IMG/VR virus record: IMGVR_UViG_3300032360_000027
Coordinates: 1-37,422 of that record
Direction: 5' to 3' (one strand)
Length of the DNA: 37,422 bases
Source of the DNA: a virus
This document shows, piece after piece, positions 14,064 to 37,422 of this stretch. How positions within the stretch are numbered: the first letter of the stretch is position 1; each line of letters opens with the position of its first letter. The notes under the pieces were generated by a model. It saw only the letters and a list, made by a program, of their open reading frames with translations. It was not told where the DNA came from and did no database searches. The translations under genes were made by a program, and so were the position numbers.

Positions 14064-14069
14064 GTTACT

Positions 14070-14075
14070 ATTATA
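14070..14075 (-). promoter_or_regulatory. -10 box (TATAAT) for the minus-strand structural genes
   Basis: Perfect TATAAT on the minus strand, ending 6 bases before ATG 14063, the same geometry as the plus-strand promoters. No convincing -35 hexamer is found 16-18 bases upstream, so it may depend on an activator. With the plus-strand promoter at 14110-14138 it makes a divergent promoter region of about 80 bases. Confidence 0.55.
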
Positions 14076-14109
14076 GTAAAAATTACACTGTTTCACACCA
14101 AAAATATGT

Positions 14110-14138
14110 TTGACTATGTGGCAGAACTGGGTTATTAT
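14110..14138 (+). promoter_or_regulatory. Sigma-70-type promoter for the polymerase-core operon, predicted leaderless
   Basis: TTGACT at 14110-14115, a 17-base spacer and TATTAT at 14133-14138. Seven bases later is ATG 14146. The TTG inside the -35 box is in frame with the downstream gene but would not be in the transcript, so ATG 14146 is the preferred start. Confidence 0.75.
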
Positions 14139-14145
14139 CTTAATT

Positions 14146-14439
14146 ATGAGTTCAATGGACTACGTGTTTGACCTAGCAGACAAGCTTGAAGAGAATAACA
14201 TTCAGTATGTTATGACCACCTTGAGACCCGGTGAAAAAGTAGACAAAATAGACGTTTATTATTCAATTACAGACCAGCTATCAAGAAAAGAATTAGCCAC
14301 GGTACTGGGAAAAATTTCCCAAGACCTCCTGAACAAAACAGACGAAGAGATTCAAAAAGAACGCACAATTACACCAGAAGATTATGAAGCTGACGACGAA
14401 GCAGAAGACGATTTCTTTAAAGATGACTCGGAAGACTAA
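14146..14439 (+). CDS. Small acidic protein of unknown function, before polymerase core
   Basis: 97 residues from ATG 14146. Not recognised. The first ~65 residues (MDYVFDLADKLEENNIQYVM, KIDVYYSITDQLSRKELATVLGKI) look like a small alpha/beta or helical domain. The last ~30 are strongly acidic (DYEADDEAEDDFFKDDSED), with Phe residues set among Asp and Glu like an ssDNA-binding-protein tip. The gene overlaps the polymerase-core gene by 17 bases, so the products are probably made together. It could be a polymerase accessory or bridging peptide, but this rests on position only. Confidence 0.65.
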   Translation: MSSMDYVFDLADKLEENNIQYVMTTLRPGEKVDKIDVYYSITDQLSRKELATVLGKISQDLLNKTDEEIQKERTITPEDYEADDEAEDDFFKDDSED

Positions 14440-16993: not shown

Positions 16994-17011
16994 CTAGAAC
17001 CCCCCTATTAT
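16983..17011 (+). promoter_or_regulatory. Sigma-70-type promoter for the ssDNA-binding protein gene
   Basis: TTGACA at 16983-16988 is a perfect -35 hexamer, followed by a 17-base spacer and TATTAT at 17006-17011. ATG 17021 follows after 9 bases, so the leader would be at most about 2-3 bases. It is the closest to consensus in the window, fitting a protein needed in large amounts. Confidence 0.8.
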
Positions 17012-17020
17012 AGGCATAAC

Positions 17021-19488: not shown

Positions 19489-19693
19489 TAAACCCGATTT
19501 CCCCTATACATCCCCTATACCCCCTCACCTCACACCAGAGGAAAGAGAACAGTGGGAGAAGGACCAAGAATGGCAAGAAAAAGAAGTCGAAAGACGGAAG
19601 AAAGATGGACTTTATGACTCTCGTAAGTTCAAAAGAAAAAGAGGCAGACCATCCTCAAAAAAATATGAAATGAAGCCCTTTCACTCCCAATAA
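19475..19693 (+). CDS. 72-residue AT-hook-like basic protein
   Basis: 72 residues with AAGGA 8 bases before ATG 19475, a good ribosome site. The N-terminus is Pro-rich (DFPYTSPIPPHLTPEE), the middle is a charged helix (EREQWEKDQEWQEKEVERRKK), and the C-terminal third has KRKRGRPSSKK, matching the AT-hook core Arg-Gly-Arg-Pro, which binds the minor groove of A/T-rich DNA. It lies between the two halves of the GT9 enzyme, overlapping the first by 14 bases. It might be a DNA-binding or virion-associated peptide. The function is not known, and AT-hook calls on such short motifs can be fortuitous. Confidence 0.6.
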   Translation: MKKDDKPDFPYTSPIPPHLTPEEREQWEKDQEWQEKEVERRKKDGLYDSRKFKRKRGRPSSKKYEMKPFHSQ

Positions 19694-19695
19694 AT

Positions 19696-20856: not shown

Positions 20857-20881
20857 CCCCACTCTAGAAAGGTGCTAGTAT
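20853..20881 (+). promoter_or_regulatory. Sigma-70-type promoter for the annealing-protein gene, predicted leaderless
   Basis: TTGACC at 20853-20858, a 17-base spacer and TAGTAT at 20876-20881, then 7 bases to ATG 20889. The TGA stop of the GT9 gene lies inside the -35 box, as at the dnaB promoter. An out-of-frame ATG at 20885 is just upstream of the used start. Confidence 0.7.
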
Positions 20882-20888
20882 CTTATGT

Positions 20889-21620
20889 ATGACAGCAGCT
20901 AGCAACCTTGGCTTGCCCGAGCCCAAAACCAGACAGATTAAAAGAGACGAAGACGGCCTCATAGAGGGATTAGATTACGTCTTCAACGAAGAAGGCCAAA
21001 TTGATTGGCGAAAAATGGTCAAACAAGAATTTCTTGTCGCTAACCGTGATAGAACCAGCGAGAGCGACGTTACAAAACTTGAAGACAACCAACTGCTAAT
21101 TCTTCTTGGGGGCATAAAAGAGCTAGCTCAAATTAGGGGATACACAAATGTGCAATACAGTGTCCAGACCCCCTCTTCAGACTACGTTGTAGCGACCTGC
21201 AGTATAAGTTTCGTACCAAATTACGAAACAGAGGGGCGCGAGATTACATTCTCAGCCATCGGAGACGCCTCCCCAGATAATACAAAAAGTTTCGCTAGAT
21301 TTTTCTTGGGTCCAATCGCGGAGAACAGGGCCTTTGTTCGTTGTGTTCGTAATTTTTTAAAAATTAATATTGTTGGCCAAGACGAGATGGGCGAATCCAA
21401 GCTTGTCTCCTCCTCTCCAAAAAAAGATAACCTAACTGATCCGGTTTCTATCTTGGAAACCCTTATGGCTAAGAAGGGCGTGTCCTTTGAAAAAATCAAA
21501 GAAAAATTAGTCAAAGAAGAAGTAAAAGGAGCGGCTGATTTCGATTACCTAAACCAAATACCCAGACTAAAAGTCTTCGAATTGATAGAAAGACTCAAAA
21601 AAGCCAAAACCAAAGCTTAA
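20889..21620 (+). CDS. Rad52-like single-strand annealing protein (probable)
   Basis: 243 residues. The N-terminus (TRQIKRDEDGLIEGLDYVFNEEGQIDWRKMV) precedes a central domain with YVVATCSISFVPNYETEGREITFSAIGDASPDN and IAENRAFVRCVRNFLKINIVGQDE. The 'Gly-Asp-Ala ... Ala-Glu-x-Arg-Ala-x-x-Arg-x-Leu-Arg' pattern is typical of Rad52/Erf-like annealing proteins of phages. The C-terminal ~60 residues (VSILETLMAKKGVSFEKIKEKL) may be a small helical domain. It would anneal complementary single strands during recombination, complementing the RecA-like protein. It has its own promoter. The stop overlaps the stop of the convergent giant gene in TTAA at 21617-21620. The family is judged by eye and needs a profile search. 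Confidence 0.55.
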   Translation: MTAASNLGLPEPKTRQIKRDEDGLIEGLDYVFNEEGQIDWRKMVKQEFLVANRDRTSESDVTKLEDNQLLILLGGIKELAQIRGYTNVQYSVQTPSSDYVVATCSISFVPNYETEGREITFSAIGDASPDNTKSFARFFLGPIAENRAFVRCVRNFLKINIVGQDEMGESKLVSSSPKKDNLTDPVSILETLMAKKGVSFEKIKEKLVKEEVKGAADFDYLNQIPRLKVFELIERLKKAKTKA

Positions 21621-22085
21621 TGGTTTCCATCAGCACCGTATTGGTTAGTCTCCTTCCCCCATGGGTACAATCTCGTTCTTAACCACCCTGATGGTTCTGG
21701 ATACTGCACGTTAACGTAGAGCCATCCAGTGTCATAGGTAATCCATCCCGCTCCAGAGCCACTGGACGGATCTAAAGTTCCGGTTGGAGCATTACCCGTA
21801 GGCAGGTAGCGCAGTTTTCCTGAAATAAGCTGGTCTCCGCTTGTCTGATTGAACGACACGTTTCCGTTAATCTGAAGCGCGTTATAGTTTGTGACATTAC
21901 CCTGTATAGTTGGGTTGACCCAAGTGCCTTGAGAGTTTTCGCGGTAAAAAACAGAGCCTCCGATATTGTCTATATCGTCCAATTTACCTGTATGGATATG
22001 TACATCATCGTTAAACGTCAGATACTGCCCAGTCAAAAATATCAAGTTCGGCACCGTGGTGGTGGTGGGGAAATTTAAAGTGGCT
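21617..22085 (-). other. Non-repeat C-terminal domain of the giant protein
   Basis: About 155 residues with no YxTG periodicity, including GSVFYRENSQGTWVN, LQINGNVSFNQTSGDQL, KLRYLPTGNAPTGTLDPS and DTGWLYVNV. Short strands with Trp and turn-rich loops are typical of the distal ends or trimerisation heads of phage fibres. It could hold the receptor-binding or folding part of the protein. Confidence 0.6.
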
Positions 22086-25000
22086 CCAGTTACGGCGGGA
22101 GCATGTATAACTGAACCGGTTATATTGTACGTGTTGCTGTCTATGGATCCTGTCGTGTATATTATTCCGCTGTTTATAGCTACGTGATCTCCAGTAAAGT
22201 AAGCGGTTCCTCCGGAGTTCATCACGGTGAAGTGTTTACCGCTCACGAAGAGCTTGCTAGCGTTTCCAGTGTTTTGTATCGTGCTCCCCGAAATTCCTAC
22301 AACACCGCCGGTTACATAGTTTACTCCACCGGTTATCAAGAAGGTATTCCCTGTTGCAAATGTGGTTATCGCACCCTCTGTTTCGCTTGTTATATAACTT
22401 TCAAATCCGGTTATGTTTACTATACCGCCAGTAATTGTATTTATACCGCTTACATTGGTTATATATTGTCCCGTTATCTTGTGGTTTCCCACGCCAGTTA
22501 TGGTTATGTTATATCCAGAAATGTTATTTGTTCCGGAGCCCGTTATGTATATATTTTGCCCGGTTATATGATTGTCTCCACCAGTTATGAACGCTGTCCC
22601 TGTTATGTAAACCCTAGTTCCGGTTACATTGTTCTGGGTGTACTGTCCGCCGGTTATATATACTTGGCTACCGTGTATTGTGTTGATGATTTGATTGGTG
22701 TTGTACTGTTCTGGCGCGGTAATACCCTGATTTGCGTATACTGTATTTCCTGATACATAGCTCCTTAAAGAACTATTTGCGACAGCGATTCCGCTTATAT
22801 TTACAACTGCTCCCGTTGCGTACTGAATAGAATCTGGCGCGCCAGTTATATATATATTTTGTCCCGTAATATGCTGCGCGCTATCTGGACCACCCGTAAT
22901 GAAGGTGTGGCCGCTTGTTATATACTGCGCCTGTCCGGTAATGTAGTGCACGCCGCCGGTAATGAGCGTGCCGTTACCCGTTATATAGTTTGTTCCGCCA
23001 GTTATGAAGAAGTTGGCTCCAGTGAGGAAATTATTGCCGCCTGTTATATCTATGTCCGTACCGGTGATATATATCGTGTCATTTTGTCCGGTTAGATTTA
23101 TATTCGTGCCGGTTATGAATATGTTATCTCCAGTTATGAAGTTCGTACCACCCGTTACGAATGCGCTTTGGCCTCTTCCGGTGAAGAAGTTGGTGCCGCC
23201 TTCTATGGTTACATTTACGCCTGACACGAATCCGGTTTGCGCGGTTATCGTAGATACACCTCCGGTTATGCTAACAACGTTGCCCGTTATGTAGTTCGTT
23301 ACGGCCTTGGCCGTCGACGCAGACAAGGAGTGTCCGCCGAAATAGCTTAGAGCTTCGTCGCCATCTATGTTGCACGTTCCGCCTTCGATCTCCTCAAAAT
23401 ATGTCCATACCTCAAAGTAGTCATCCTTATCCGCTTCAGCCATGACCGAAATCTGCATGGTTCTTTCACCATCGGCATAGCCGGCTGAGGCGGAATTATT
23501 GTCGTACTGGATCAAGCGTGAATTCTTCGCTATCGACGACCCGTTCTTACGAAGTTCTATGTAGCTTTCTGTGTCGTAGTAATGCACCTCAGTGAGGGTG
23601 ACCATCGCTGTGAAGGAGTATCTTCCATCTTGTGGAGCAACAAACCTTTTTTGCGTAGTGTCAAAATTATTTCCGATATCAAAATCTATATTATTAAATT
23701 TAGCCTTAGTTGCGGTATCTTCGTCAACAGCTTGGTCACTCCCGCCCCTATTAGCTAAGAATGAAATCTCCGCATTACCCGACCCACTGGCTACCTGATG
23801 GAAGACAAACGAACCGCCGGTTATGTAGTTAATGCCACCGCTTACGATGGCGCTGGTGCCGGTTATGTTGCTCGTTCCACCCGATATGTATACATTTGAA
23901 CCAGTTATAGACTGCGTAGTATTTGAGCCGCTGACATAAATAGAACCGCCTCTCATGTAATGTGTTCCACCCGTAAGGTAAGTCACTCCGCCGCTTATAC
24001 TCACGCTTGTTCCGGTGTTTATCGTCGTAACTCCACTTGTGCTGTATATGTTTGTCGGGTTGGTTGCGCCACCCGTTATGTAATTAGTGCCACCCGAAAG
24101 ATTAATAGTATTGCCTGTTATGAACGAGGTGCCCGACCCATAGATGTTAGCATATGCCGCGAAGTCCTCTGACTCCTCAAGAGTTAGGTACATTATTGAG
24201 TCACCAGATTGCGTTAGCTCTAGACTCTCCGTCCCTGATATGTGTATTGACGCTCCATCATGAGCGTGGAGCGTATGCTGTCCGCCTGTTACAGATATGA
24301 CATGGCCGCTAAATGTTCCCGAACCAGAATATATGGTTACATTTTGACCAGTTACAGTGATGGTCGCCCCACTTCCTCCGGTTATATGAGTTATTCCTCC
24401 CGTGACAAATACGGTCTGCCCTGTCACATAACTTGTTCCACCAGTCTGGTAGAACGAGGCTCCGGTCACGTAATTCGTACCGCTCATTATGGTGTTGTTC
24501 GCACCCGTTATGTAGTTTGTCCCCCCGGTTATTGAATTGTTTACGCCTGTTACATAATTCGTACCGCTTGTAATAAAGTTAAGTCCTGTTACGGAGATCG
24601 ACGAACCAACGTGCCCAGTTATATATGTGGTTCCACCCGTGATATTAATAGCTTCCCCCGTTATATACGAGGTTCCGCTCATTACATTTATATTCGTTCC
24701 CGTCAGATATGTGGTACCGCCAGTTATGTCTATGTAGGCTCCCGTTACAGTATTGGTTCCTTCACTCAAGTACGCAATGCCCGTTACGTTCAGGGCATTT
24801 GCTATAATCGTGTTTGTTCCACCGGTCACGAGCACGGTGTCGCCGGTGATATTACTTGTGCCGCTGTATATTTGGAAGCTAGCTTCTCCTCCGCTTATAT
24901 AAATATTCCCTCCGGTTATAGTTATGTCTCTGCCGCTTACATAGCTCGTACCACTTGTTATGGAGTTTATTCCACTAACCATGGAGAAGGTTCCGCCGGT

Positions 25001-28000
25001 AACCACGTTGTTACCACCGGTTATATTGATTGTGAATCCTGTTACTTGGTTAATCCCGCTTAACACCTCTATTTGGCCACCCGTTATGTAATTAGTGCCG
25101 CCGGTTACGTTGACAGTCTCTCCCGATATATTGTTATCACCACTCATGATGGTGATGTTGGAGTCTGCGCCCCCTGTCACGTTGACATACGTGCCGGTTA
25201 TGTGAGAGGTACCGCTGAGCACCGTGATTGCACCTCCGGTTACATAGTTTGTCTGGACTCCACTAAGATTTATTATTGCCCCAGTTACATAGTTTGTGTT
25301 TACTCCGGTAATATTTATCTCAGTTCCGGTAATATAATGGGTACCGCCGGTTATTCTTACATCCGCATTCTGTCCCGTTATGTAGAAATTTGTACCCGTT
25401 ATGTAGTGTGTGCCCCCGGAAATCTCGAATTGATATCCTGTAGCGTTTACGGTCTGATTACCCCCGGTTATATAGAAGTTTCTGCCAGAGGCATGCGTTA
25501 CGCCTCCTGACACGTCGAAGCTTATGCCGCTTGCGTATGTTGTGCCTCCCGTTATGTATACGTCTGATCCAGTTATGTAGAACAGTGTATCGGGATCTCC
25601 CGACAGATGGAAGGTGCCGCCAGTGATGTTGAATGTCTCACCTGTTATATTTACTACGTCAGACCCGCTTATGAAAGCCGTGTTAACTCCCGTTATAGAT
25701 ACATTAGAGGCTCCAGTAATATTTATGGTGTTTCCCGTAATGTATTGTATTCCGCCTGTTATGTAGGCTGTACCTGTTATATTAAACGTACCAGTCCCTG
25801 ATATGTAATTAAGGCCGCTTGTTATTGTTATATTTCCACCGGTTATGGAGTTGTGTTCTCCACCTGTTATGTTGATCGTGTTGCCGCTTACCACACCCAT
25901 CGTTCCGCCGGTTATCGTGACTGTGGTTCCGGTTATGTAATGAGTTCCACCGGTTATAAACGACGTGCCGCCGGTTATGTTATACGTCACCTCGTTTCCG
26001 GTTACATAGTTAAATCCGCTGGTGATATTAAATACTTCACCCGTTATGTAGTTATCTCCTCCAGTTACTGTGTATGAAGCGCCAGTTAGATAATTGCTCC
26101 CCCCTGCCACGTATATATTTCCACCAGTAGCGTACACAGTGTTCCCGCTCACATGCGAGGTTCCGGTGATGTAAACTGAATCTCCTGTTGCAAAATTTGT
26201 ACCGCCAGTTATGAAAATTGATTGCCCGGTGAACTGTCCACCCGACCCGCTATTGATGTATATCTCTAATCCGGTTACGGTTTGAACTTCTGCCCCATAC
26301 AGATTCGTTATATCTGCAAAGGAATTTAGATCTCCCCCCACATCGAGAGACTGGAAGAGTCCACCCGTTATGTAGGCGTTTCCACTTGTGTTTATGTCGA
26401 ATGTTCCACCCGTAAAGAATAAATCACCAAGTAATCCGGTCCCGGTTATGTAATTTACGCCACCGCTTATATGGATATTATGCCCTGAAAGAATAATGTT
26501 CCCGCTTGTCGCGTATATTTCCTGACCAGTAATGTAACTTGTACCACCGCTTATCGTGGTTACTCCTCCCGTTATATAGGCAGTGGTGCCCGTTATATGA
26601 CTGGTTCCACTGCTAACATTTATTACGTGCCCTGTTGCGTAAGTGGTTCCACCGGTTATATTCGTGGTTCCACTTGTGTACGTAATTCCACCTGTTACAT
26701 AAGTGTTTCCAGACGAATAATTAACCCCGGTCACATACATATTTCCGGTTGAGTAGTTGATCCCACCGGTGATGAAGGTTGTCCCTGTCGCGTAGGTTAC
26801 GCCTGTGGCGTAAGTTGTTCCAGTTATATAACTGATCCCCGTGGTGTAAATGTTTTCTCCCGTTATGTATTGGGTTCCCGTGGCGTAGGTCGTCCCTGTC
26901 GCGTAGACCGTACCTGTCGCGTAGGTGTTGCCCGTTACATAAGATGTTCCAGTTATGTAAATATTCTCTCCAGTTACATAGGATGTGCCAGTTATGTAGT
27001 TGAATCCAGTCGTGTACGCAGTTCCCGTGATGTAATTGGTTCCAGTCGCATATGTGGTTCCCGTGATGTAGTTGGTTCCAGTTGCGTATGTGGTTCCAGT
27101 TGCATACGTAGTACCGGTTGCATATATAGTTCCAGTTGCATACGTAGTACCGGTTGCATACGCGGTTCCTGTTATGTAGCTAGTGCCGGTTACATAAGTG
27201 GTTCCGCCGGTTATAAAGAATTGTCCGCCTGTTGCATAGGTGGTTCCACCGCTTATCAGATCCACGGTTCCCGTTATAAAACTGGTGCCAGTTATAAAGT
27301 TTGTACCTCCTGTGATAAATATTCCACTTCCAGACACATACAGATTGGCGTCTGCTTCTCCCGTTACGGATACGTAATATGCATGTAGTGTAGAATCCCT
27401 AAAGATATTGTTGTTCCCGGTGAACTCAAGAATTGTTGAGTCCTCAACCTCGTTACCGTCACCAATCAAATATAAATTGTTAGCCTCGCTTACTGTCGTA
27501 TCCGAGTAGAGTACGTAAATATTTTCTCCGCTGCGCACTGTGTTTGTGCCACCCGATATCCATACGCCAGATCCACTTATTGAATTTGTTCCACCTGTTA
27601 TGTAAAATTTGTTATTAGTACCCGTGAATAATCCGGTACCACTAATATTTACCATAGCAAAGGTGCTGCTGTCTGCACTTATTGTCGTAATCCCAGAAGC
27701 ACTTATAGTTACAGTGGAGTCGCTTATCGTATTTTGTCCGGTACCATAGATTGCGTTAGTGCCCTCAGATATTGTAATTTCACCACCGCTTATGTAGTTT
27801 GATCCGCTGTATATCGACAGGTGCCTTCCGGTAATGTATGTATCTCCCGTTATGTGTAGGTTACTGTCTTCTACATTAAAACTCGGATGAGTATTCCCGG
27901 AGAAGTATCCAGTTATATTAACTATATCTGCCCCAGTTATTCTTATAACCGACCCAGATAGCGACTGGATAACTCCGCTGTTTATTGTAACGTCAATCCC

Positions 28001-31000
28001 CGTTACGGTAGCTCCACCCGTTATGTAATTTGTTCCACCGTCTATTGTTACGGTATCTATTAGCGCGCCGCTGATAGTATTTACTCCGCCTTCTATGTTG
28101 ACGGCGTCTAACACTAGGTCTAAATCGCCATAGTTTGTTAGTGCCGTTACGGTTCCGGTTATATTGGTTACTCCACTATTAACTATCGTATTCGTTCCGC
28201 CGGTTATATTTATGTTGCCGCTTATTGAGCCCGTGAAGGAGCTTGTGCCTCCCGTTATGAATATATTTTGCCCCGTAACTGATGCCGTCGAGCCTATTAG
28301 CTGAATTGTCTGGCCGGTAGCATATACATCGCCAGTTACATAAGCGGTAGTTGCTCCCCCCGTAATTGATACGTTAGATCCCGTTGCTGAAATCGTATTT
28401 ATGCCTCCGCTCAGATAGAATTGATTGCCTGACAGGTACCCTGTTCCGCCGGTAATATTAACGGTTTGTGCGCCGGTTATGTGAGTAGTGCCGCTGATTG
28501 TCGTGACGTTGTCTGGCGTGAGAAACAGCGTTCCAGAATTATCTATAGTTGTGTGGCCGCCGCTTATGTGTACCCTAACGCCACTTTGAGCAACTAGATT
28601 GGTGTTTCCACCCGTTAAGTACATTTGCGTGCCTTCACCCGTCCCCGTTATATAGTTAATTCCTCCGGAAATCGTAAGCTGCTCTGTATCTGTATAATTT
28701 ATGCCAGAATTTATGTGCGTAAGATCGCTGTGAACAAAAGCTAAACCAAATTCACTTAGGTTTACATGCGTTATGCCATTGTAAGTTCTTAGCTCTCCAT
28801 CAGTAGCGTTGAACACGTTGTAGCCCGAGTAGACATTAAGATTTCCTGTTGAGCTTATCGTGTTGTTTCCGCCTGTAACGGTAATTCCGGTTCCTGTTAT
28901 GTAATTGGTACCGCTTATTATTCTTGTGTCTGATCCGGTTATGTATACCGATGTTCCAGACGCGTATACTGTATTTATGCCGCTTACCAATGAAAATCCA
29001 GACGCTGACTGTATATTAACTGACCCCCCTGTTGCGTATATTGTAATGCCTGTACCAGATATAACTATGTCTGACCCGGTTGCAGTTACGTTTTGTATTG
29101 TGTCTCCTGTTATAGTTATGGTTCCATCGGAAACATTAATTTGTTCCACCGTAACTTCGTTGACTCCGCCAGTAACGTTGACGATATCCGCAGTCACTAC
29201 GTTTATTCCGCTATACAGATTAGATATTCCACCTGTTATAAACCCAGTTCCCCCGCTCATGAAGAGCGTACCGCTGGTGATATTGAATTGACCAGAGCCC
29301 GTTATATGAGTAGTTCCACCGGTTATATTTATTTGCGGCGCAGCTGGACTATTTATCGTTTGATAAGTCGTTCCGCTTACTATATTAATTTGTCTTCCTG
29401 TTATTGAGTTTTCCCCACCCGTTACAGTAACAAAATTTCCCGTTACGACCCCAATCTCTCCCCCGCTTATGTATATATTTTGCCCAGTTACATAGTGGGT
29501 GCCTCCCGTTATGTAGGTTTCCCCTCCTGTTACGTAGAAATTCGTTCCGGTCAGATAATTTATCCCGCTTTGTATTATATCTACGCCAGAGATATAGTTT
29601 CTTCCGCCAGATATGTAAATTTGATTACCAGTAATTGACGCTGTAATTTCATCCGAGTTAAATATCACCGAAGCGTTACCGGTTATTAAGCCAACGTCAC
29701 CGGTTACATAATTTGTTCCTCCATCTATTGTGATGTCTGCTCCGGTCAGGTATACGTCGGACTGGTTAAATATACTATTTTGCGAGCCGGTTATATTTAC
29801 CGAGCCTTCCTTGTTGTGTATTGTATTCCCAAGGCCACCAGTTATATTTACGGTCTGGTATACGCCAGTAAGAGTGTTTGTGCCGCCGGTTATATTTATT
29901 GGTGTATTAGCCGCGCTTCTTCCTATATTTCTTATTTCTACCTCTTCACCAGAATCAGGCGCTTCGCTAAAGTTGAGGTAAGCGCCGCTGAGATAATAAT
30001 CTGCATCCGGATTTTGTATCAGTCCCCCTACAGACACTATCAACTCAGACGTGCTCGTCGCAACGCCTTCGCCAGAGATAACATATCCCGTAGCCCTTGT
30101 CCCAGTGGTTATTCCTGAAACTATATAGTAAGCTGTAGCGGATTGTCTGCTGCTTTGATTTTCAAATACGTAGCTTGTACCGCTGTATATATTTATTCCA
30201 TCACCGGTTATATTATTGGGCCCGCCAGTAATTATTATACCACCAGAAACTGAAATGCTGCCTCCAGTAACGTGGCTCACATCACCAAGGAAGTACTGGA
30301 TTGCGCCAGTAACATAGGTTACCCCACCCGTTATGTAGGTTGTTCCTCCCGTAATGTTGCTTGTGCCGCTTGTTATAGTGGAGGTTCCGCCTGTTATAAA
30401 TACGTTGTTCCCGCTCAGGTTGGTGATGCTTGAGCCGGTAATGTAAGCCGTAACCGTGTTTATTGTTTCTGCTGTTCCTGTTATATAGGCCGTGGTCCCC
30501 GTTACGTTTATATTTGCTCCCGTTATAAACTGCGTGATTCCACTTACGTAACTTGTTCCTCCCGTTATATAGGCTGTTCCCCCCGTTATGTAATTAACAC
30601 CGGAAGCATAGATGTTGGCTCCAGTTGCGTATGCGGTTCCAGTTACATAGGTCGTCCCCGTGGTGAAAGCCGTACCATCGATATAAGATGTTACATTTTG
30701 TCCCGTTATGTGGGCGCTCCCATTTACGGTTATATCGTAGGTGCCTCCGCCGGTTACATAAAGATTTACCCCCGTCGCATAGGTGGTTAAGTTATTTCCG
30801 GTTATGGTGGTTGTTCCAGTTGGATAAACGCTTACTGATGATCCGTCGTTGAAGTTGAACTCGTTTCCAGTCAAGTAAGAAGTTCCACCAGCAACGGTTA
30901 TGGTGTGCCCGGTTAAATAGTTTGTAATTCCTGACGCATTGATCTGAGCACCAGTTGCGTAAATTGTCTCTCCCGTCATGAACAGGTTCGTACCCGTTAT

Positions 31001-34000
31001 GTAGCTTACTCCGCCTGTTACATGTATGTTGGTTCCCGTGAAATATCCTGTTCCACTGTATACGTTTATTACTCCTCCTGTAGCCGCTACAGTTCCTCCC
31101 GTGTTATGAATGTGCCATGTTCCCCCAGAAGGAATAGAGAAGCTTCCAGTATTATGGAAATGCACGTTTGTTCCAGACTGTATGAAGATTCCGGTTTTAG
31201 CCCCAGTGATAACTCCAGTGATATGGGTTGTTCCGCCGGATATTTGAACCGTCTCGAAAGTCCCAGTCAGCACGTTGTCACCGTCAGTTAACTGTACGTT
31301 TTTAAATTGTGAGAAGTCTATTACTCCGGTGTCTGCTATATAGAGTAATGCACCCTCGTTTATGTTTATTGTATGGAATCCAGTTCCGGTTACATGGACA
31401 TTCGAGTCGGCAAAGTTAAAGTTTGCTCCGGATTCTCCTGTTATCGACACGGTGCCACTAGTAATATCCACATCTGATCCAGATATGTACTGTGACCCTC
31501 CGGTTATGTTGAAATTATTTCCGGTTATATAAGCGTTTCCTGACCATATATCTATATCTGCACTTTGGAAATTACCCGTCAAATGGAGGTCCCCGGTTAT
31601 TTGTAAATTTCCTTCGGACCCCGAATTGAAATATATATTATCACCAGTTATATGAGCGGTTGTTCCCGTCAGGTATACCTGTTCTCCCGTTATGTAAGCT
31701 ACGCCGGTTACATTAACGCTTTCTGGGTCTGTAACATACGCTATTCCACTTAAGAAATTAGTTCCGTTTGTTATGTTGCTAACCGACCCTGTTATGTAAT
31801 TGGTTCCATCTGTTATGTTGCTGGTCACTCCTGATACATAAGTAGTTCCCTGCAGATTTATAGTTTCTCCGCTTGCGTAAATATTGAAGCCGGTAACATT
31901 AACCACGCCGCCGGTTATGTAGCTAGTCATTCCCGTTACGTTTATGCCGGTTCCGGTTATATAACTGGTGATCCCGGAGACGTAAGTCGCTGTTGATCCG
32001 GTGATGTAAGTATTAACGCCGGTTACGTAATTTGTACCCCCCGTTATCCTAACAATTGACGCGCTTATGACAGGCGTTCCGCCGGTTATGGTTACTGGCT
32101 GCGTTGTAGTTATGCCGCCTGCTACGTTATAATTCGCATCATCACCGCCGTAAACATTAACGTCTCCCGTTACGTGTACAACATCGGCCCCGTCCAGTCT
32201 AGTGTCGTCTCCTATTATCGTGATTCCTGAACTATGATTTATTGTATTTGGACCGCCGGTAATAGCTATGCTTCCGCTTGACTTGTTTGGCAGGTTAACT
32301 ATTCCAGAGTTGACAACGTAGAGCGTCCCCATATCAGCAATTTCGATAGAGGCCTTGTTAAGTATCGTTGCTGGTGGTATTTCTAGCACGAGTGAGCCTA
32401 GATTATCCGCGTCTATAACTGGGGCGACAGTACTTCCAGTTAGCGTAATCTTAGCAACAGAATCTTCTAAATGTATTGCGTCCAGAGATCCCGTGAAATT
32501 GAAATTATCAGCCCTAAAGCCCGTTATTATATCAGCCCTTGCGTTTACCGTTACTCCACTTGCGTTTACATTGATAGCGTGATTACCGCCAGTGATATTC
32601 ACCTCGTTCCCAGAGTGAAGAGTGAGAACGTTTTCTCCGCTGTTTATGGTGATTGTATTATTTTGGCCAGTATATAGATTAGTTCCGCCGGTTATTGTTA
32701 TATTATTTCCAGTGAAGCTTGAATTAGTCGAATTAGATACGAACACATCCCCATCTAGGGCAATTGTATTCTCTGGATAATAATTAATTGTATCAAATGT
32801 TCCGGAGAACGTTCCGGTGCCGGATGTATAAATCGTGGTTCTATTTGAACCCCCCGTGAAGTGATAGCTGCCACCGGTGCTATATATTACATTTATACTA
32901 TCATTTAGATTGAATGTGTTGTCTCGCCCTGTTAGATATAGATTTCCGCTGGGGTGACTTATTGTTCCGCCGGATATGTTAATTGTTTCTATTCCGGTTA
33001 GTTCTATATTCTGTCCCGTTATGAAAGCCTTCTCTATGTAATTTGTTCCACCGGATATGTTAGCTGTGGCCCCTGTAATGTAATTGTACCCACCTGTTAC
33101 TGATATATTGCTTCCCGTTAACCTGTTCGTTCCGCCGGTTATGAATATGTTGTATCCTGTCCCAGAAACAGTTGCTCCAGCCTGATTTATTATTGTCGTC
33201 GGGGTGAGTGCTGGCACATGGAAAACACCAGTGTTATATATATTTACCGTACCTCCGGATATTATTATTCCGCTTCCAGAAATAATACTACCACTATGTA
33301 TGTTTGTTACGCCTCCTGTTATACTTAAGCCGGTGAAAACGCCAGAGAAGGTATTGATCCCACTTATGAGTTGGACCGCGCCAAATTTTGAAAAGTCAAT
33401 AACCCCAGTATCGTCTATATGGAGCATCGCCCCAGCGTTTATCTCCACGTTATGTCCAGACCCCGTTATGTTAACGGTTGAATTATAGGCTGTTAAATTA
33501 AATCCAGAGCCGCCTGTCATGTGCACAACACCACCGGTCATATTCAGACCGGTTCCTGTCACGTGGCTTGTTCCAGAAATAATTTGTATAATTCCGTCTC
33601 CACCAGTCAGGTAAATATTGTTTCCCGTGATATTGGCTGTGGAATTTTCGTTGAAATATATATTGTCTCCTGTTACATGAGCGACGCTTCCTGTTAGGGA
33701 TATGTTTCCGCCAGTTATATAATTCGACCCACCGGTTATGCTTATATTTGTTCCCGTTACATAGGAGGTTCCGTCTGTTGAGTATATGTTTTCTCCAGTT
33801 ATATACGCGGTGCCACTTACAACATCCGCTGTTCCCGTTATGTAAGATACTCCACCTGTTATATATTGAGTCCCTGTCGCGTAGGTCGTTCCGCCTGTTA
33901 TGTATTGAGTACCAGTAGCGTAGGTCGTTCCACCTGTTATATATTGAGTGCCCGTCGCGTAAGCAATGCCCGAGACGTAACTGATGGCACCGGTAACATA

Positions 34001-37000
34001 AGCCGTACCGGTTATATAAGCGCTACCTCCCGTCACATAAGCCGTTCCGGTTATATAACTATCGGTTCCCGTGACGTAGGCTATTCCAGTTATATGACTA
34101 GCGGTTCCCGTTACGTAAGCTGTTCCGGTTACGTAGCTTATGCCCGTGGCGTAAGTTATTCCTGTTGCGTAGGTAACTCCACTTACGTAAGATGTCCCCG
34201 TGGCGTAAACTGTGCCTGTTATGTAGCTAGTGTCTCCTGTGACATAAGCTATTCCGGTTATATAATTGTTGGCCCCAGTAATATAGGCCGTTCCCGTAAC
34301 ATAGCTGTTGACCCCCGTGGCGTATGTAGTCCCCCCCGTAGAATAAACATTTATCCCTGTAGCGTAAACCGCGCCTTCCCCGTTGTGATAAGTAATGCCT
34401 GTAGCGTAGGTAGTCCCTATCGTGATATTGGTGCTGGAGGCATACGTCGTACCCGTCGTATAGGTAGTCCCTGCGGCATGAGTCGTACCTGTCGCATAAA
34501 CAGTCCCCGCGGCATGCGTCGTACCTGTCGCATAAACAGTCCCCGCGGCATGCGTCGTGCCTGTCGCATAAATAGTTCCCGAGGCATGTGTAGTGCCTGT
34601 TACATAGGTGGTGCCCGTGGCGTAAGCTGTTCCTGTTACGTATATATCTCCCCCTGAAAGATAATTAAGCCCATCCGTGACAAATATTTCAGTTCCTGTT
34701 GCGTTAACAGTTCCGGTGTTTAGCACCGTTACGGTAGATTGCTCTGCTATCGTAAATATTCCAGTATTTAGTATATTAACAACTGCGCCGCTCCTTATAA
34801 CTACCCCACTTCCCGATATGACTGTCCCACTTTGGAAATTTGTTACCCCACCCGTTATTTCTACCCCACTTACAACACCGTTTATATTAGTTGTCCCACT
34901 TACAAATGAAAGATGAGTGAACTGCGTTAGATCTAAAACACCGGTATCTTCTATCCACAGCGACGCCCCAGCCTCAATTGTTACATTATGCCCAGAACCA
35001 CTTATGGTCACGGTTGAGTTGCTTATCGGAACGTTAAATCCAGATCCGCCAGTTACATAAACGGTTCCCCCATGAATGCTTAAACCTGTTCCGCCTGTCA
35101 CGTAATATGTGCCAGAAACCAACTGCACAAGTTCCCCTGTAAATACGTTAGTTCCGCCGGTTATGCGTACTGTTCCACCCGTTATGTAGTTGATCCCTGT
35201 TACGTTTATGTCTGTTCCTGTTATGTAATTAGTTCCAGTTACATAGAAAGAACTACCAGTTGCGTAAGTAGTTCCGGTTGCATAGATATTTCCTGATGCG
35301 TAGGTCGTTCCTGTCGTATAAGTCGTTCCCGTCGCGTAGGTCGTTCCTGTTGAGTAGGTCGTTCCTGTTGCGTGGGTAACTCCACTTACGTAAGATATTC
35401 CTGTGGTATAGACATTTCCCGTGGCGTAAGTTATTCCTGTTGCGTAGGTAACTCCTGTTACATAAGATGTTCCCGTGGAGTAAACCGTGCCGGTTATGTA
35501 GCTGGTGTCTCCAGTGATATAGGCTGTTCCGTTTATATAACTGTTGATTCCCGTTACGTGAGCCGTCCCGGTTATATAGTTGATCCCTGTCGCATAGGTA
35601 GTGCCCGTAGCGTAGGTTATGCCCGTGGCGTAGGTCGTGCCCGTTGTGTAGGTGATGCCTGTCGCATAGGTAACCCCGGTTACATAAGATGTTCCTGTGG
35701 AGTAAACCGTGCCGGTTATGTAGCTAGTGTCTCCGGTGACGTAAGCCGTCCCGTTTATATAACTGTTGATTCCCGTTACGTGAGCCGTCCCGGTTATATA
35801 GTTGATCCCTGTCGCGTAGGTAGTGCCCGTGGCGTAGGTTATGCCCGTGGCGTAGGTCGTGCCCGAGACATAGGTTGTGCCCGTTGAGTAGATGGTGCCC
35901 GTGGCGTAGGTTGTGCCCGTCGAGTAGATGGTGCCCGTGGCGTAGGTTGTGCCCGTCGAGTAGATGGTGCCCGTGGCGTAGGTTGTGCCTGTAGCATAAG
36001 TGGTTCCTGTTACGTAAGTGGTCCCCGTGGCGTAAACAGCACCCCCGGTTACATAAACAAAATTTCCAGAGACGTAAGACTTATAGCCTGACACTGACAA
36101 ACTGCTTCCGGTCACGTAAACTATACCCCCCGTTACGCTTATGCCAGTTCCAGTTATATATACCGAAGCGCCAGTTACATTTATAGAATCACCCGACGTT
36201 ATAAAAGTATCGCCCTGAACAGTAAGATTTCCCACTGCTCCATCGCCAAAGGTTATGTTTCCTGTCCCAGAAAGATAAGTAGTTCCGCCTTCTATGCTTA
36301 TATCATAACCAGTTACATAATTTGAAACTCCCGATGCGCTAATTGAATTGCCCGTTAAATAAATCGTTCCACCAGTAACAAAAGTTTGATACCCGGTTAC
36401 GTAAGCGGTGTTTCCTGAAATTATATTGCTTCCGCCGGTTACGTATACCGTGCCGCCAGTTATTAAGCTCCCATGTCCCGAAACGTAAAAAGTTTCACCT
36501 GATAAATAATTCGTTCCGCCAGTTATTCCCCCGAAGAAAGCGCCGGTTATAACATTTATTCCTCCTGTTATTGAAACGCTTGTGCCGGTAATATAGTTCG
36601 TCCCACTCGTAACATAGATGTCTTCCCCAGTGTAGAATCCTGATCCGCTGGCGAATACATTTATCGCCGAACCAGAGGCTATTACGTGTCCATAATTGTG
36701 AACATGCACCGGCTCCCCGGAAGGAATAGAATATATGCCTGTATTGTGCAAATGCACTTCCGCACCGGAGAATATTACGATACCTGTGTCTGCTGCGTTT
36801 ATGGTACCCGTGATGTGAGTTATTCCTCCGGTTATATTTATACCACTAATGATTCCGCTTATGAATCCTGTTCCACCTTCAAGAATTAAGTTCGTGAATC
36901 TGGTAAAGTCTATAACACCTGTATCACTTAAGAAAAGTCGTGCACCGTCGTGTATGTTTACCCCGCTGCAATCACCGGTCATCCTTATATCTGAGCTATA

Positions 37001-37422
37001 TACATTAAGAATAGCGCCGGACTCTATTCCCGTTATTCCTATGTTTCCACTTTGAATGGTTATGTCTCTTCCGGTTACGAAGGTGTGACCCCCGGTTATA
37101 TTAGCCGTGCCAGTTACGTAGATGTTAACACCCGTAGCGTAAGCCGTACCAGTCACGTAGGTATTAGTACCCGTAGTGTAAGCCGTGCCGGTTATGTAAT
37201 TAGTACCCGTAGTGTAAGCCGTGCCGGTTACGTAGGCCGTTCCATTTACATAGCTGTTGGTTCCCGTAACGTAGGCTGTTCCTGTTATGTAACTATCGGT
37301 CCCCGTAATGTAGACCGTTCCAGTTGCATAACTGGTGGTTCCTGTTACATAAGCCGTCCCGGTTACGTAGCTGATACCCGAGGCATATACGGTCCCGGTT
37401 GCGTAGGTTATGCCCGTGGCAT
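21617..37422 (-). CDS. Giant YxTG/ITGG-repeat structural protein (5' end outside window)
   Basis: The frame is open from the right edge to a TAA at 21617-21619, so at least 5,267 residues are encoded and the N-terminus is missing; the GTG at 37156 is only an internal codon. Almost the whole chain is short repeats of about 6-7 residues of the form Tyr-x-Thr-Gly-x-x (YATGTT, YITGGT, NITGG, YVSGGT), rich in Gly, Thr, Ile, Val, Tyr and Asn and with very few Cys. This pattern suggests a long beta-solenoid. The regularity is broken by four ~120-residue modules, a C1q-like domain, a short fibre-type domain and a non-repeat C-terminal domain that ends WLRTRLYPWGKETNQYG. There is no transport signal in view. 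A long tail or side fibre that reaches the host is the best guess; a capsid decoration or adhesin is an alternative. The plus-strand ORFs here are shadows of the repeat. Confidence 0.88.
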   Translation of the reverse strand, partial: ATGITYATGTVYASGISYVTGTAYVTGTTSYATGTVYITGTDSYITGTAYVTGTNSYVNGTAYVTGTAYTTGTNYITGTAYTTGTNTYVTGTAYATGVNIYVTGTANITGGHTFVTGRDITIQSGNIGITGIESGAILNVYSSDIRMTGDCSGVNIHDGARLFLSDTGVIDFTRFTNLILEGGTGFISGIISGINITGGITHITGTINAADTGIVIFSGAEVHLHNTGIYSIPSGEPVHVHNYGHVIASGSAINVFASGSGFYTGEDIYVTSGTNYITGTSVSITGGINVITGAFFGGITGGTNYLSGETFYVSGHGSLITGGTVYVTGGSNIISGNTAYVTGYQTFVTGGTIYLTGNSISASGVSNYVTGYDISIEGGTTYLSGTGNITFGDGAVGNLTVQGDTFITSGDSINVTGASVYITGTGISVTGGIVYVTGSSLSVSGYKSYVSGNFVYVTGGAVYATGTTYVTGTTYATGTTYATGTIYSTGTTYATGTIYSTGTTYATGTIYSTGTTYVSGTTYATGITYATGTTYATGINYITGTAHVTGINSYINGTAYVTGDTSYITGTVYSTGTSYVTGVTYATGITYTTGTTYATGITYATGTTYATGINYITGTAHVTGINSYINGTAYITGDTSYITGTVYSTGTSYVTGVTYATGITYATGNVYTTGISYVSGVTHATGTTYSTGTTYATGTTYTTGTTYASGNIYATGTTYATGSSFYVTGTNYITGTDINVTGINYITGGTVRITGGTNVFTGELVQLVSGTYYVTGGTGLSIHGGTVYVTGGSGFNVPISNSTVTISGSGHNVTIEAGASLWIEDTGVLDLTQFTHLSFVSGTTNINGVVSGVEITGGVTNFQSGTVISGSGVVIRSGAVVNILNTGIFTIAEQSTVTVLNTGTVNATGTEIFVTDGLNYLSGGDIYVTGTAYATGTTYVTGTTHASGTIYATGTTHAAGTVYATGTTHAAGTVYATGTTHAAGTTYTTGTTYASSTNITIGTTYATGITYHNGEGAVYATGINVYSTGGTTYATGVNSYVTGTAYITGANNYITGIAYVTGDTSYITGTVYATGTSYVSGVTYATGITYATGISYVTGTAYVTGTASHITGIAYVTGTDSYITGTAYVTGGSAYITGTAYVTGAISYVSGIAYATGTQYITGGTTYATGTQYITGGTTYATGTQYITGGVSYITGTADVVSGTAYITGENIYSTDGTSYVTGTNISITGGSNYITGGNISLTGSVAHVTGDNIYFNENSTANITGNNIYLTGGDGIIQIISGTSHVTGTGLNMTGGVVHMTGGSGFNLTAYNSTVNITGSGHNVEINAGAMLHIDDTGVIDFSKFGAVQLISGINTFSGVFTGLSITGGVTNIHSGSIISGSGIIISGGTVNIYNTGVFHVPALTPTTIINQAGATVSGTGYNIFITGGTNRLTGSNISVTGGYNYITGATANISGGTNYIEKAFITGQNIELTGIETINISGGTISHPSGNLYLTGRDNTFNLNDSINVIYSTGGSYHFTGGSNRTTIYTSGTGTFSGTFDTINYYPENTIALDGDVFVSNSTNSSFTGNNITITGGTNLYTGQNNTITINSGENVLTLHSGNEVNITGGNHAINVNASGVTVNARADIITGFRADNFNFTGSLDAIHLEDSVAKITLTGSTVAPVIDADNLGSLVLEIPPATILNKASIEIADMGTLYVVNSGIVNLPNKSSGSIAITGGPNTINHSSGITIIGDDTRLDGADVVHVTGDVNVYGGDDANYNVAGGITTTQPVTITGGTPVISASIVRITGGTNYVTGVNTYITGSTATYVSGITSYITGTGINVTGMTSYITGGVVNVTGFNIYASGETINLQGTTYVSGVTSNITDGTNYITGSVSNITNGTNFLSGIAYVTDPESVNVTGVAYITGEQVYLTGTTAHITGDNIYFNSGSEGNLQITGDLHLTGNFQSADIDIWSGNAYITGNNFNITGGSQYISGSDVDITSGTVSITGESGANFNFADSNVHVTGTGFHTININEGALLYIADTGVIDFSQFKNVQLTDGDNVLTGTFETVQISGGTTHITGVITGAKTGIFIQSGTNVHFHNTGSFSIPSGGTWHIHNTGGTVAATGGVINVYSGTGYFTGTNIHVTGGVSYITGTNLFMTGETIYATGAQINASGITNYLTGHTITVAGGTSYLTGNEFNFNDGSSVSVYPTGTTTITGNNLTTYATGVNLYVTGGGTYDITVNGSAHITGQNVTSYIDGTAFTTGTTYVTGTAYATGANIYASGVNYITGGTAYITGGTSYVSGITQFITGANINVTGTTAYITGTAETINTVTAYITGSSITNLSGNNVFITGGTSTITSGTSNITGGTTYITGGVTYVTGAIQYFLGDVSHVTGGSISVSGGIIITGGPNNITGDGINIYSGTSYVFENQSSRQSATAYYIVSGITTGTRATGYVISGEGVATSTSELIVSVGGLIQNPDADYYLSGAYLNFSEAPDSGEEVEIRNIGRSAANTPINITGGTNTLTGVYQTVNITGGLGNTIHNKEGSVNITGSQNSIFNQSDVYLTGADITIDGGTNYVTGDVGLITGNASVIFNSDEITASITGNQIYISGGRNYISGVDIIQSGINYLTGTNFYVTGGETYITGGTHYVTGQNIYISGGEIGVVTGNFVTVTGGENSITGRQINIVSGTTYQTINSPAAPQINITGGTTHITGSGQFNITSGTLFMSGGTGFITGGISNLYSGINVVTADIVNVTGGVNEVTVEQINVSDGTITITGDTIQNVTATGSDIVISGTGITIYATGGSVNIQSASGFSLVSGINTVYASGTSVYITGSDTRIISGTNYITGTGITVTGGNNTISSTGNLNVYSGYNVFNATDGELRTYNGITHVNLSEFGLAFVHSDLTHINSGINYTDTEQLTISGGINYITGTGEGTQMYLTGGNTNLVAQSGVRVHISGGHTTIDNSGTLFLTPDNVTTISGTTHITGAQTVNITGGTGYLSGNQFYLSGGINTISATGSNVSITGGATTAYVTGDVYATGQTIQLIGSTASVTGQNIFITGGTSSFTGSISGNINITGGTNTIVNSGVTNITGTVTALTNYGDLDLVLDAVNIEGGVNTISGALIDTVTIDGGTNYITGGATVTGIDVTINSGVIQSLSGSVIRITGADIVNITGYFSGNTHPSFNVEDSNLHITGDTYITGRHLSIYSGSNYISGGEITISEGTNAIYGTGQNTISDSTVTISASGITTISADSSTFAMVNISGTGLFTGTNNKFYITGGTNSISGSGVWISGGTNTVRSGENIYVLYSDTTVSEANNLYLIGDGNEVEDSTILEFTGNNNIFRDSTLHAYYVSVTGEADANLYVSGSGIFITGGTNFITGTSFITGTVDLISGGTTYATGGQFFITGGTTYVTGTSYITGTAYATGTTYATGTIYATGTTYATGTTYATGTNYITGTTYATGTNYITGTAYTTGFNYITGTSYVTGENIYITGTSYVTGNTYATGTVYATGTTYATGTQYITGENIYTTGISYITGTTYATGVTYATGTTFITGGINYSTGNMYVTGVNYSSGNTYVTGGITYTSGTTNITGGTTYATGHVINVSSGTSHITGTTAYITGGVTTISGGTSYITGQEIYATSGNIILSGHNIHISGGVNYITGTGLLGDLFFTGGTFDINTSGNAYITGGLFQSLDVGGDLNSFADITNLYGAEVQTVTGLEIYINSGSGGQFTGQSIFITGGTNFATGDSVYITGTSHVSGNTVYATGGNIYVAGGSNYLTGASYTVTGGDNYITGEVFNITSGFNYVTGNEVTYNITGGTSFITGGTHYITGTTVTITGGTMGVVSGNTINITGGEHNSITGGNITITSGLNYISGTGTFNITGTAYITGGIQYITGNTINITGASNVSITGVNTAFISGSDVVNITGETFNITGGTFHLSGDPDTLFYITGSDVYITGGTTYASGISFDVSGGVTHASGRNFYITGGNQTVNATGYQFEISGGTHYITGTNFYITGQNADVRITGGTHYITGTEINITGVNTNYVTGAIINLSGVQTNYVTGGAITVLSGTSHITGTYVNVTGGADSNITIMSGDNNISGETVNVTGGTNYITGGQIEVLSGINQVTGFTINITGGNNVVTGGTFSMVSGINSITSGTSYVSGRDITITGGNIYISGGEASFQIYSGTSNITGDTVLVTGGTNTIIANALNVTGIAYLSEGTNTVTGAYIDITGGTTYLTGTNINVMSGTSYITGEAINITGGTTYITGHVGSSISVTGLNFITSGTNYVTGVNNSITGGTNYITGANNTIMSGTNYVTGASFYQTGGTSYVTGQTVFVTGGITHITGGSGATITVTGQNVTIYSGSGTFSGHVISVTGGQHTLHAHDGASIHISGTESLELTQSGDSIMYLTLEESEDFAAYANIYGSGTSFITGNTINLSGGTNYITGGATNPTNIYSTSGVTTINTGTSVSISGGVTYLTGGTHYMRGGSIYVSGSNTTQSITGSNVYISGGTSNITGTSAIVSGGINYITGGSFVFHQVASGSGNAEISFLANRGGSDQAVDEDTATKAKFNNIDFDIGNNFDTTQKRFVAPQDGRYSFTAMVTLTEVHYYDTESYIELRKNGSSIAKNSRLIQYDNNSASAGYADGERTMQISVMAEADKDDYFEVWTYFEEIEGGTCNIDGDEALSYFGGHSLSASTAKAVTNYITGNVVSITGGVSTITAQTGFVSGVNVTIEGGTNFFTGRGQSAFVTGGTNFITGDNIFITGTNINLTGQNDTIYITGTDIDITGGNNFLTGANFFITGGTNYITGNGTLITGGVHYITGQAQYITSGHTFITGGPDSAQHITGQNIYITGAPDSIQYATGAVVNISGIAVANSSLRSYVSGNTVYANQGITAPEQYNTNQIINTIHGSQVYITGGQYTQNNVTGTRVYITGTAFITGGDNHITGQNIYITGSGTNNISGYNITITGVGNHKITGQYITNVSGINTITGGIVNITGFESYITSETEGAITTFATGNTFLITGGVNYVTGGVVGISGSTIQNTGNASKLFVSGKHFTVMNSGGTAYFTGDHVAINSGIIYTTGSIDSNTYNITGSVIHAPAVTGATLNFPTTTTVPNLIFLTGQYLTFNDDVHIHTGKLDDIDNIGGSVFYRENSQGTWVNPTIQGNVTNYNALQINGNVSFNQTSGDQLISGKLRYLPTGNAPTGTLDPSSGSGAGWITYDTGWLYVNVQYPEPSGWLRTRLYPWGKETNQYGADGNH
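23301..23814 (-). other. C1q/TNF-like domain inside the giant protein
   Basis: About 170 residues interrupt the repeats. The order FNNIDFDIGNNFDTTQKRF, VAPQDGRYSFTAMVTLTE, YIELRKNGSSIAKNSR, MQISVMAEADKDDYFEVWTYFEE matches the C1q-like jelly roll (start strand, 'F.aP..G.Y.F', '.l.kNG', '.v.l..GD.v.v'). Such domains trimerise and bind ligands in many fibres. It contains a Cys (GGTCNIDG), one of very few in the whole protein. It is followed on both sides by YITG repeats. Confidence 0.78.
29901..30166 (-). other. Short phage-fibre domain inside the giant protein
   Basis: About 85 residues without YxTG repeats: ATAYYIVSGITTGTRATGY, ELIVSVGGLIQNPDADYYLSGAYLNFSEAPDSGEEVEIR. The 'vsv.G..Q.p..dY..sg..l.F..aP..G..v.i' pattern is widespread in phage tail-fibre proteins. 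It supports a fibre identity for the giant protein. Confidence 0.7.
30994..31370 (-). repeat. Higher-order module, copy 4, in the giant protein
   Basis: About 125 residues: GALLYIADTGVIDFSQFKNV, ETVQISGGTTHITG, SGTNVHFHNTGSFSIPSG, IHNTGGTVAATG and YFTGTNIHVTGG. It is closest to copy 1 in its His-containing strands (VHLHNTG versus VHFHNTG). It starts 2,080 bases after copy 3. Confidence 0.75.
33091..33450 (-). repeat. Higher-order module, copy 3, in the giant protein
   Basis: About 120 residues: HIDDTGVIDFSKFGAVQL, FTGLSITGGVTNIHSG, GGTVNIYNTGVFHVPALT, NQAGATVSGTG and ITGGTNRLTG. It starts 1,534 bases after copy 2 in the reading direction. Confidence 0.75.
33850..33963 (-). repeat. 39-bp tandem repeat encoding YITGGTTYATGTQ units
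   Basis: Three consecutive 13-codon units, each with one YITGG and one YATGT motif. Differences between copies are mainly synonymous. It shows that unit length can switch between 36 and 39 bases while the frame is kept. Confidence 0.75.
34482..34589 (-). repeat. 36-bp tandem repeat encoding YATGTTHAAGTV units
   Basis: Unit starts at 34482, 34518 and 34554, with the first two almost identical and the third with a few changes. It encodes alternating YATG and HAAG motifs, a variant of the general YxTG pattern in which Tyr is replaced by His. Confidence 0.78.
34633..34984 (-). repeat. Higher-order module, copy 2, in the giant protein
   Basis: About 117 residues: GASLWIEDTGVLDLTQFTHL, SGVEITGGVTNFQSG, SGAVVNILNTGIFTIAEQ, VLNTGTVNATG and then LSGGDIYVTG. 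It aligns in order with copy 1, with 1,977 bases between the two module starts. Repeats of variable length lie between. Confidence 0.75.
35457..35900 (-). repeat. 222-bp tandem duplication within the giant gene
   Basis: Two copies (35457-35678 and 35679-35900), 74 codons each, starting with the same GTTACATAAGATGTTCC stretch on the plus strand and staying nearly identical for ~180 bases, with only scattered differences mostly at third bases. The length is a multiple of three, so the frame is kept. Related but more diverged versions are visible at about 34143-34350 and 37195-37350. Confidence 0.8.
35895..36002 (-). repeat. 36-bp tandem repeat encoding YSTGTTYATGTI units
   Basis: The 36-base unit starting at 35895 is repeated exactly at 35931 and partly again at 35967. 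It encodes twelve residues with alternating YATG and YSTG. Exact identity between copies points to recent slippage or unequal exchange. Confidence 0.8.
36587..36961 (-). repeat. Higher-order module, copy 1, in the giant protein
   Basis: About 125 residues. It starts with GARLFLSDTGVIDFTRFTNL, passes through ISGINITGGITHITG, SGAEVHLHNTGIYSIPSG and VHNYGHVIASG, and returns to YITG repeats. The same order is found in copies at 34633, 33091 and 30994. The conserved core is 'DTGV[IL]D[FL]..F', 'ITGG.T', '.[IL]..NTG.[FY].[IV]P' and '[VT]..[AS][TS]G'. Confidence 0.75.

Follow-up and report, generated by a model that had tools for sequence, protein, structure and literature searches.

Fibres and tailspikes of tailed phages, like the tail-tip proteins of lambda type, are encoded in the tail region next to L, K and J, and the fibres are long and modular, occupy a variable slot, and have a terminal domain conserved among relatives. 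In grasses, a solved beta-roll fold has 14-15 residues per coil, a rise of 4.5-4.8 Å and a Thr/Ser-rich flat face (PMC7383708), and in Thermus phage P23-45 a tape measure protein of 5,002 aa was termed giant by its authors (PMC10770324). We describe here a giant repeat protein encoded in a viral DNA stretch of 37,422 bp (the window, an entire linear IMG/VR record), and propose that it is a tail-associated fibre or adhesin with a beta-roll shaft, whose distal part lies in the window, in a siphovirus-type phage with lambda-like tail-tip genes. We put the probability of this reading at roughly 0.68, because of the location of the gene, its modular architecture, the variability of its slot, the conserved end domain, and the low-charge repetitive body; the position in the virion, the total length and receptor binding we infer.

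A giant gene at the end of a contig

A single uninterrupted minus-strand frame runs from position 37420 to a TAA stop at 21617-21619. The window is the whole record, and the 5′ end of the gene is therefore missing, cut by the contig end. The features first needed are the following:

21617..37420, minus strand: 3′ part of the putative giant fibre gene, 5,267 codons, with the 5′ part past the contig end (open frame, coding constraint, orthologues in G001, G009 and G010)
14384..16993, plus strand: DnaE-like DNA polymerase, the query for related phages (profile and sequence search)

The preliminary description had reported a 15.8-kb minus-strand frame open at the window edge, which these 5,267 stop-free codons bear out, and a protein of at least 5,267 residues, which holds as a lower bound, with a relative (G009) carrying 2,742 more upstream. 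The encoded part has a mass of 537 kDa and a computed pI of 4.4; it is rich in Thr (19%), Gly (17%) and Ile (11%), poor in Lys (0.4%) and Arg (0.8%), and contains 2 Cys. Because only 66 of its 5,267 residues are Lys or Arg, a standard tryptic digest would leave it almost invisible to proteomics.

The frame is a real gene under coding constraint, neither chance nor artefact. Between two copies of a 222-nt unit, 16 codons differ synonymously and 2 non-synonymously, and the 23 copies of the peptide TTYATG use 19 different codings. The gene does stop at the contig edge inside repeat-rich DNA, a zone of assembler failure, as a chimeric repeat assembly or a chance open frame in low-complexity DNA might; however, the repeats show purifying selection, orthologues are present in three other IMG/VR records, and the protein is collinear with that of G009 at 86% identity across 930 residues, leaving an artefact a negligible likelihood overall and ruling it out for those parts of the gene that have orthologues.

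A search with the window polymerase identified hundreds of metagenomic phage contigs, and orthologues of the giant TG-repeat protein were found in only three IMG/VR records. G001 (57 kb) codes for a complete orthologue of 3,774 aa, and G010 (54 kb) for one of ~3,600 aa, broken only by a run of Ns; a biological break near the 3′ end of the G010 gene was rejected on account of that N-run. The third, G009 (IMGVR_UViG_3300031800_000001, 116 kb), was found by searching with a repeat module. Its residues 2743-3676, which reach the end of its contig, are collinear with window residues 1-975, with 86% identity over aligned residues, and its open frame is intact across these 975 comparable window residues. 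A 42-residue indel between the two lies in uncertain alignment; it may represent seven repeat half-units of 6 residues each, an odd count that would speak against the pairing of half-units proposed below. Because G009 has 2,742 further N-terminal residues, the intact window protein probably comprises ~8,000 aa (2,742 + 5,267 = 8,009) if the G009 architecture applies, an estimate resting on a different phage whose contig ends inside the gene.

Relatives came only from polymerase-, alignment- or module-based searches; the C-terminal sequence alone, or the C1q/repeat part, returned none in IMG/VR. Among deposited phages (50,697 records) there was no relative except one weak low-complexity match, to the ITGG repeats (E 3e-3) in Salmonella phage Sasha, which we rejected as a resemblance of low complexity; the 321-aa protein concerned has no tail genes near it in the part of the genome displayed. 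Searching bacterial and archaeal genomes with the repeat module gave no relative. A TG-rich protein in L029 was excluded, its collagen-like GATGATG repeat being a different one; such proteins lie near the adhesin slot in other group members (L029 18623-19999 and L031 18457-19839, minus strand).

Periodicity and proposed fold of the repeats

The Thr-Gly repeats noted in the preliminary description are genuine, with 623 [TS]G dipeptides spaced mainly by 7 (n=213) and 6 (n=150) residues. The YxTG arrays have a period of 6 residues, with 12 and 24 also strong and some stretches at 13, and the ITGG regions have a period of 7/14; alternation between 6- and 7-residue spacings shows no excess over chance in the giant protein. 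The half-repeat consensus is T-T-Y-[IAV]-T-G at spacing 6 and G-T-I-Y-[IV]-T-G at spacing 7. Interspersed in the window are four copies of a module that is longer and better conserved, GA.L.I.DTGVIDF ... SG..V.I.NTG.F.IP, which has one related copy in G001. Arrays and modules are arranged as follows:

37106..37420, minus strand: hexapeptide (YxTG) array 1, aa 1-105 (sequence, TRF)
36611..37003, minus strand: solenoid module copy 1 (GA-L-DTGVIDF ... NTG), aa 140-270
35216..36058, minus strand: hexapeptide array 2, aa 455-735, holding two 222-nt units
34631..35038, minus strand: module copy 2, aa 795-930
33821..34648, minus strand: hexapeptide / 13-residue array 3, aa 925-1200
33086..33508, minus strand: module copy 3, aa 1305-1445
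31016..31423, minus strand: module copy 4, aa 2000-2135
26621..27253, minus strand: hexapeptide array 4, aa 3390-3600

When half-repeats are aligned on [TS]G and similarity is scored over the four preceding residues, the value is 0.274 at lag 1, 0.382 at lag 2 and 0.281 at lag 3, and 34% for fourth neighbours. Permutation within runs shows the lag-2 excess to be significant overall (p <= 0.0004) and also for aa 3600-4530, an ITGG region (p <= 0.0007) in which TRF detects hardly any DNA tandem repeat and yet the excess holds. Because every second half-unit is more alike, even where DNA tandem repeats are scarce, the pattern indicates that a structural turn would consist of two half-repeats (12-14 residues), favouring a two-sheet beta-roll over a three-sided helix. 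The earlier suggestion of two to three units per turn is thereby narrowed to two, the lag test of half-repeats rejecting three. The two-unit parity could partly stem from past duplication of two-unit blocks.

The preliminary description had tied the repeats to no named family, and a Pfam profile search now ties them weakly to one, LbR_Ice_bind (PF21300), with one score just above the cut-off and two below it. The principal matches are these:

36368..36628, minus strand: aa 265-351, the top-scoring LbR_Ice_bind (PF21300) match in the first piece (30.4 bits, cut-off 30)
22895..23155, minus strand: LbR_Ice_bind match at aa 4756-4842, overlapped by a 3ULT match (profile and PDB sequence search)

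Across four pieces of the window protein PF21300 scores 30.4 bits (cut-off 30), 29.8 and 22.3, with none in the fourth; G009 gives 20.4 bits, and residues 1-2,000 of the G001 protein give no match. A PDB sequence search with the repeats leads to the Lolium protein 3ULT, with a large compositional bias correction; the 3ULT match is not significant for the G001 protein (E 0.12), and neither LbR_Ice_bind nor 3ULT matches two residue-shuffled control sequences. A PHROG tail-fibre match to the repeats is weak, and at E 0.01 none of the pieces scanned matches, in Pfam, the YadA head repeat of YadA-type trimeric autotransporters. Structure prediction, carried out for a monomer, gave all-beta models of very low confidence, on which we do not rely: AlphaFold models of aa 600-1000 and 4500-5267, built from small internal alignments, have pLDDT values of 45 and 40, and a PDB fold search with the first (aa 600-1000) returned nothing significant (no E < 0.8).

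By sequence, the grass ice-binding beta-roll appears weakly as the closest solved fold, and would be the best structural analogue, with kinship unproven and the likeness partly compositional. The ITGG regions match the 14-15-residue coil of the grass type by their 7+7 spacing with lag-2 parity, and the YxTG arrays have 12-13 residues. In the half-repeat profile I/V/A stands before [TS]G and Y/N one residue earlier; the grass fold has interior Asn/His ladders. We infer that the shaft is a thin two-sheet beta-roll. If this fold is right, the ~4,870-4,900 roll residues in the window, at 13-14 per turn, would make about 350-375 turns and span 160-180 nm, and the claim that the fibre is exceptionally long stands, at ~350 rungs within the window.

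An intertwined trimeric shaft, such as a triple beta-spiral or a trimeric beta-helix, would leave the tail-fibre function unchanged. In known proteins, domains of the C1q-like fold and fibre domains of the T7 type assemble as trimers, and both are matched here or in the neighbouring gene; however, the parity of two half-repeats and the consensus with one apolar residue preceding [TS]G suit the coil of a beta-roll, and three separate rolls could still be joined by trimeric end domains, so we consider an intertwined shaft unlikely. Less probable by a wide margin is a role of the repeats as a surface that binds ice or inhibits its recrystallisation, by which the virion would be tethered to ice or shielded in frozen water. 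Grass ice-binding beta-rolls are the sole Pfam and PDB matches of the repeats, and regular Thr ladders are expected along one face, but the match concerns the pattern of the fold, and the length, the tail-operon location, the lectin and C1q-like inserts and the variable slot occupants all point to adhesion.

End domains, neighbourhood and the putative adhesin slot

The single-chain beta-roll that we favour would carry several domains of other kinds, and it ends beside a gene that marks its slot:

29906..30148, minus strand: internal non-repeat domain, aa ~2425-2505, ..ELIVSVGGLIQNPDADYYLSG..SGEEVEIRN (conserved in G001, 47% identity)
23330..23722, minus strand: C1q-like domain, aa 4567-4697 (Pfam C1q 21.7 bits, cut-off 23.7; cerebellin chains)
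21620..22069, minus strand: C-terminal domain, aa 5118-5267, ..LQINGNVSFNQTSGDQLISG.. WITYDTGWLYV..SGWLRTRL (conserved in G001 and G010)
20889..21620, plus strand: convergent neighbour gene, 243 aa, adhesin-slot marker (homologue in 66 of 80 related loci)

The C1q-like domain named in the preliminary description is visible by sequence, with matches to cerebellin single-domain chains (E 2.7e-4 to 1.2e-3 in a PDB sequence search), while its Pfam score falls just under the cut-off; no counterpart was seen in the G001 orthologue. Relatives conserve an internal domain and the C-terminal head described there, the C-terminal domain being kept across three lineages (window, G001 and G010).

Lambda-type tail genes flank the fibre operon, with gpL, Prok-JAB/NlpC (K) and J identified by family in G001, and G009 and G010 have the same tail gene order. 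The gene thus lies in the tail region in all three relatives; the window itself ends short of the tail side. On its other side the operon converges on the 243-aa gene, followed by replication genes. In G001 and G010 the orthologue is preceded by a protein of 2,149-2,186 aa with Laminin_G_3, in which a Phage_T7_tail match is above cut-off in G001 and below it in G010, and a small gene preceding this in G001 has a TIG match above cut-off. These first ~2,150 residues form a separate gene ending in ITG repeats, and the next gene starts at once, at a TAA-ATG junction in G001 and an ATGA overlap in G010. In G009, N-terminal parts and repeats are fused in one open frame, in the order ~1,300 residues (which look like Ig/TIG-type domains), Laminin_G_3, small fibre domain, repeats. 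The fibre is split at the same place in G001 (13969-31854) and G010 (12904-28322) and fused in G009, a natural case of fusion or fission.

The minus-strand gene after the 243-aa gene is often a variable Ser/Thr/Gly/Asn-rich one, and in some phages tail-tip gpJ itself; across the 66 loci with the 243-aa gene, the slot holds Ser/Thr/Gly/Asn-rich ORFs, FG-GAP repeats, collagen-like repeats, or gpJ. Variable adhesin slots are typical of host-recognition genes. In L061, L062, L066 and L077 the slot proteins encoded after the 243-aa gene are very Thr-rich (24-34%), some being Cys-rich too. Giant low-charge repeat proteins are also typical of bacterial surface adhesins, and this one could be displayed on or secreted by the infected cell, outside the virion, in surface exclusion, aggregation or as a biofilm adhesin. 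We regard this as improbable: the gene adjoins tail genes in three relatives, the same slot carries gpJ-type genes in other phages, and the module search yielded no bacterial or archaeal relative. A tail-associated fibre, which the preliminary description had proposed as a fibre or solenoid, is instead well supported by the neighbourhood, the slot comparison, the repeat parity and the conserved end domains.

Elsewhere in the window, a second fibre-like locus (12033-14096, minus strand) lies between replication genes and codes for proteins of 538 aa (PHROG tail fibre match, weak GP38) and 148 aa, the equivalent position in G001 being occupied by proteins of 1,848 and 696 aa. A gene with a PHROG tryptophan halogenase match (6583-8223, plus strand) also lies among replication genes. 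A glycosyltransferase-like gene (17545-19488, plus strand) is conserved in 69 of 80 related loci, and with a nucleotide-sugar epimerase-like gene (2-802, plus strand) it has possible functions in glycan modification.

A candidate fibre compared with known systems

We propose that the chain would start as in G009, with ~1,300 Ig/TIG-like residues, a Laminin_G_3 (ConA-like lectin) domain and a small fibre domain, and that the remaining several thousand residues would fold into a thin two-sheet beta-roll. Each turn would consist of two half-repeats of 6-8 residues, x-x-[YN]-[IVA]-[TS]-G, with I/V/A probably in the core, Tyr/Asn/Thr forming ladders and Gly placed at the turns. If a turn takes 12-14 residues and adds about 0.45-0.48 nm, the full chain would make a rod of about 170-200 nm. 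The roll would act as a rigid, nearly uncharged spacer bearing the inserted C1q-like and fibre domains, the conserved C-terminal domain would serve receptor binding or fold termination, and the rod would keep the host-binding domains away from the phage tail.

At 72847-90960, G009 also codes for a tape measure protein of 6,037 aa (L123:16761-20000 and L120:1-14874), the N-terminal part of which matches many PHROG tape measure families; it exceeds the 5,002-aa tape measure of P23-45, and its size suggests an extremely long tail. At the same locus, relatives have open frames of 1,762-5,143 aa, some perhaps cut by contig ends. Tentatively, and at somewhat less than even odds, we picture a single chain of ~8,000 residues folded into an unbroken two-sheet beta-roll rod of ~200 nm. 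Lectin-like domains would sit at one tip and the conserved head at the opposite tip, and the siphovirus bearing the rod would have an extremely long tail, to judge from a tape measure of 6,037 residues. If true, it would rank with the longest phage fibres and beta-rolls described for a single chain. Neither phage fibres nor beta-roll solenoids are new in themselves, and it is their combination at such size that would be new; the open-access literature yielded no description of this fibre type, which leaves its absence unproven. The proposed fibre would extend the size range of phage fibres and add a beta-roll-like shaft without a relative among deposited phages, and the finding points to an uncultured siphovirus group with very large tail proteins. 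Together, the phages with two genes and a giant of ~3,600-3,800 residues, the fused gene of G009 and the larger gene of the window make up a natural series in which solenoid growth by repeat gain, with units under purifying selection, can be studied.

Like tailed-phage fibres and tailspikes and the lambda-type tail-tip proteins, the giant gene lies in the tail region by L, K and J, and its product is likewise long and modular, in a variable slot, with a terminal domain conserved among relatives; it differs in being several times longer than ordinary phage fibres and in having a shaft of YxTG/ITGG repeats. The P23-45 tape measure is similarly a structural protein of giant size in a phage with extreme virion dimensions, as we propose for the fibre, but it is a tail tape measure and not an external repeat fibre, and G009 has its separate tape measure. 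The Lolium perenne IRI protein (PDB 3ULT, PF21300) has coils of ~14 residues, each built from two half-repeats that end in [ST]G, as we propose for the phage protein; it is Thr/Ser-rich like the phage repeats, and is their best sequence match. It has 118 residues and 8 coils, whereas the phage protein would have several hundred coils, in which, unlike in the grass beta-roll, Tyr or Asn/Ile precedes the core residue; and the grass beta-roll binds ice, and the sequence resemblance between the two is in part compositional.
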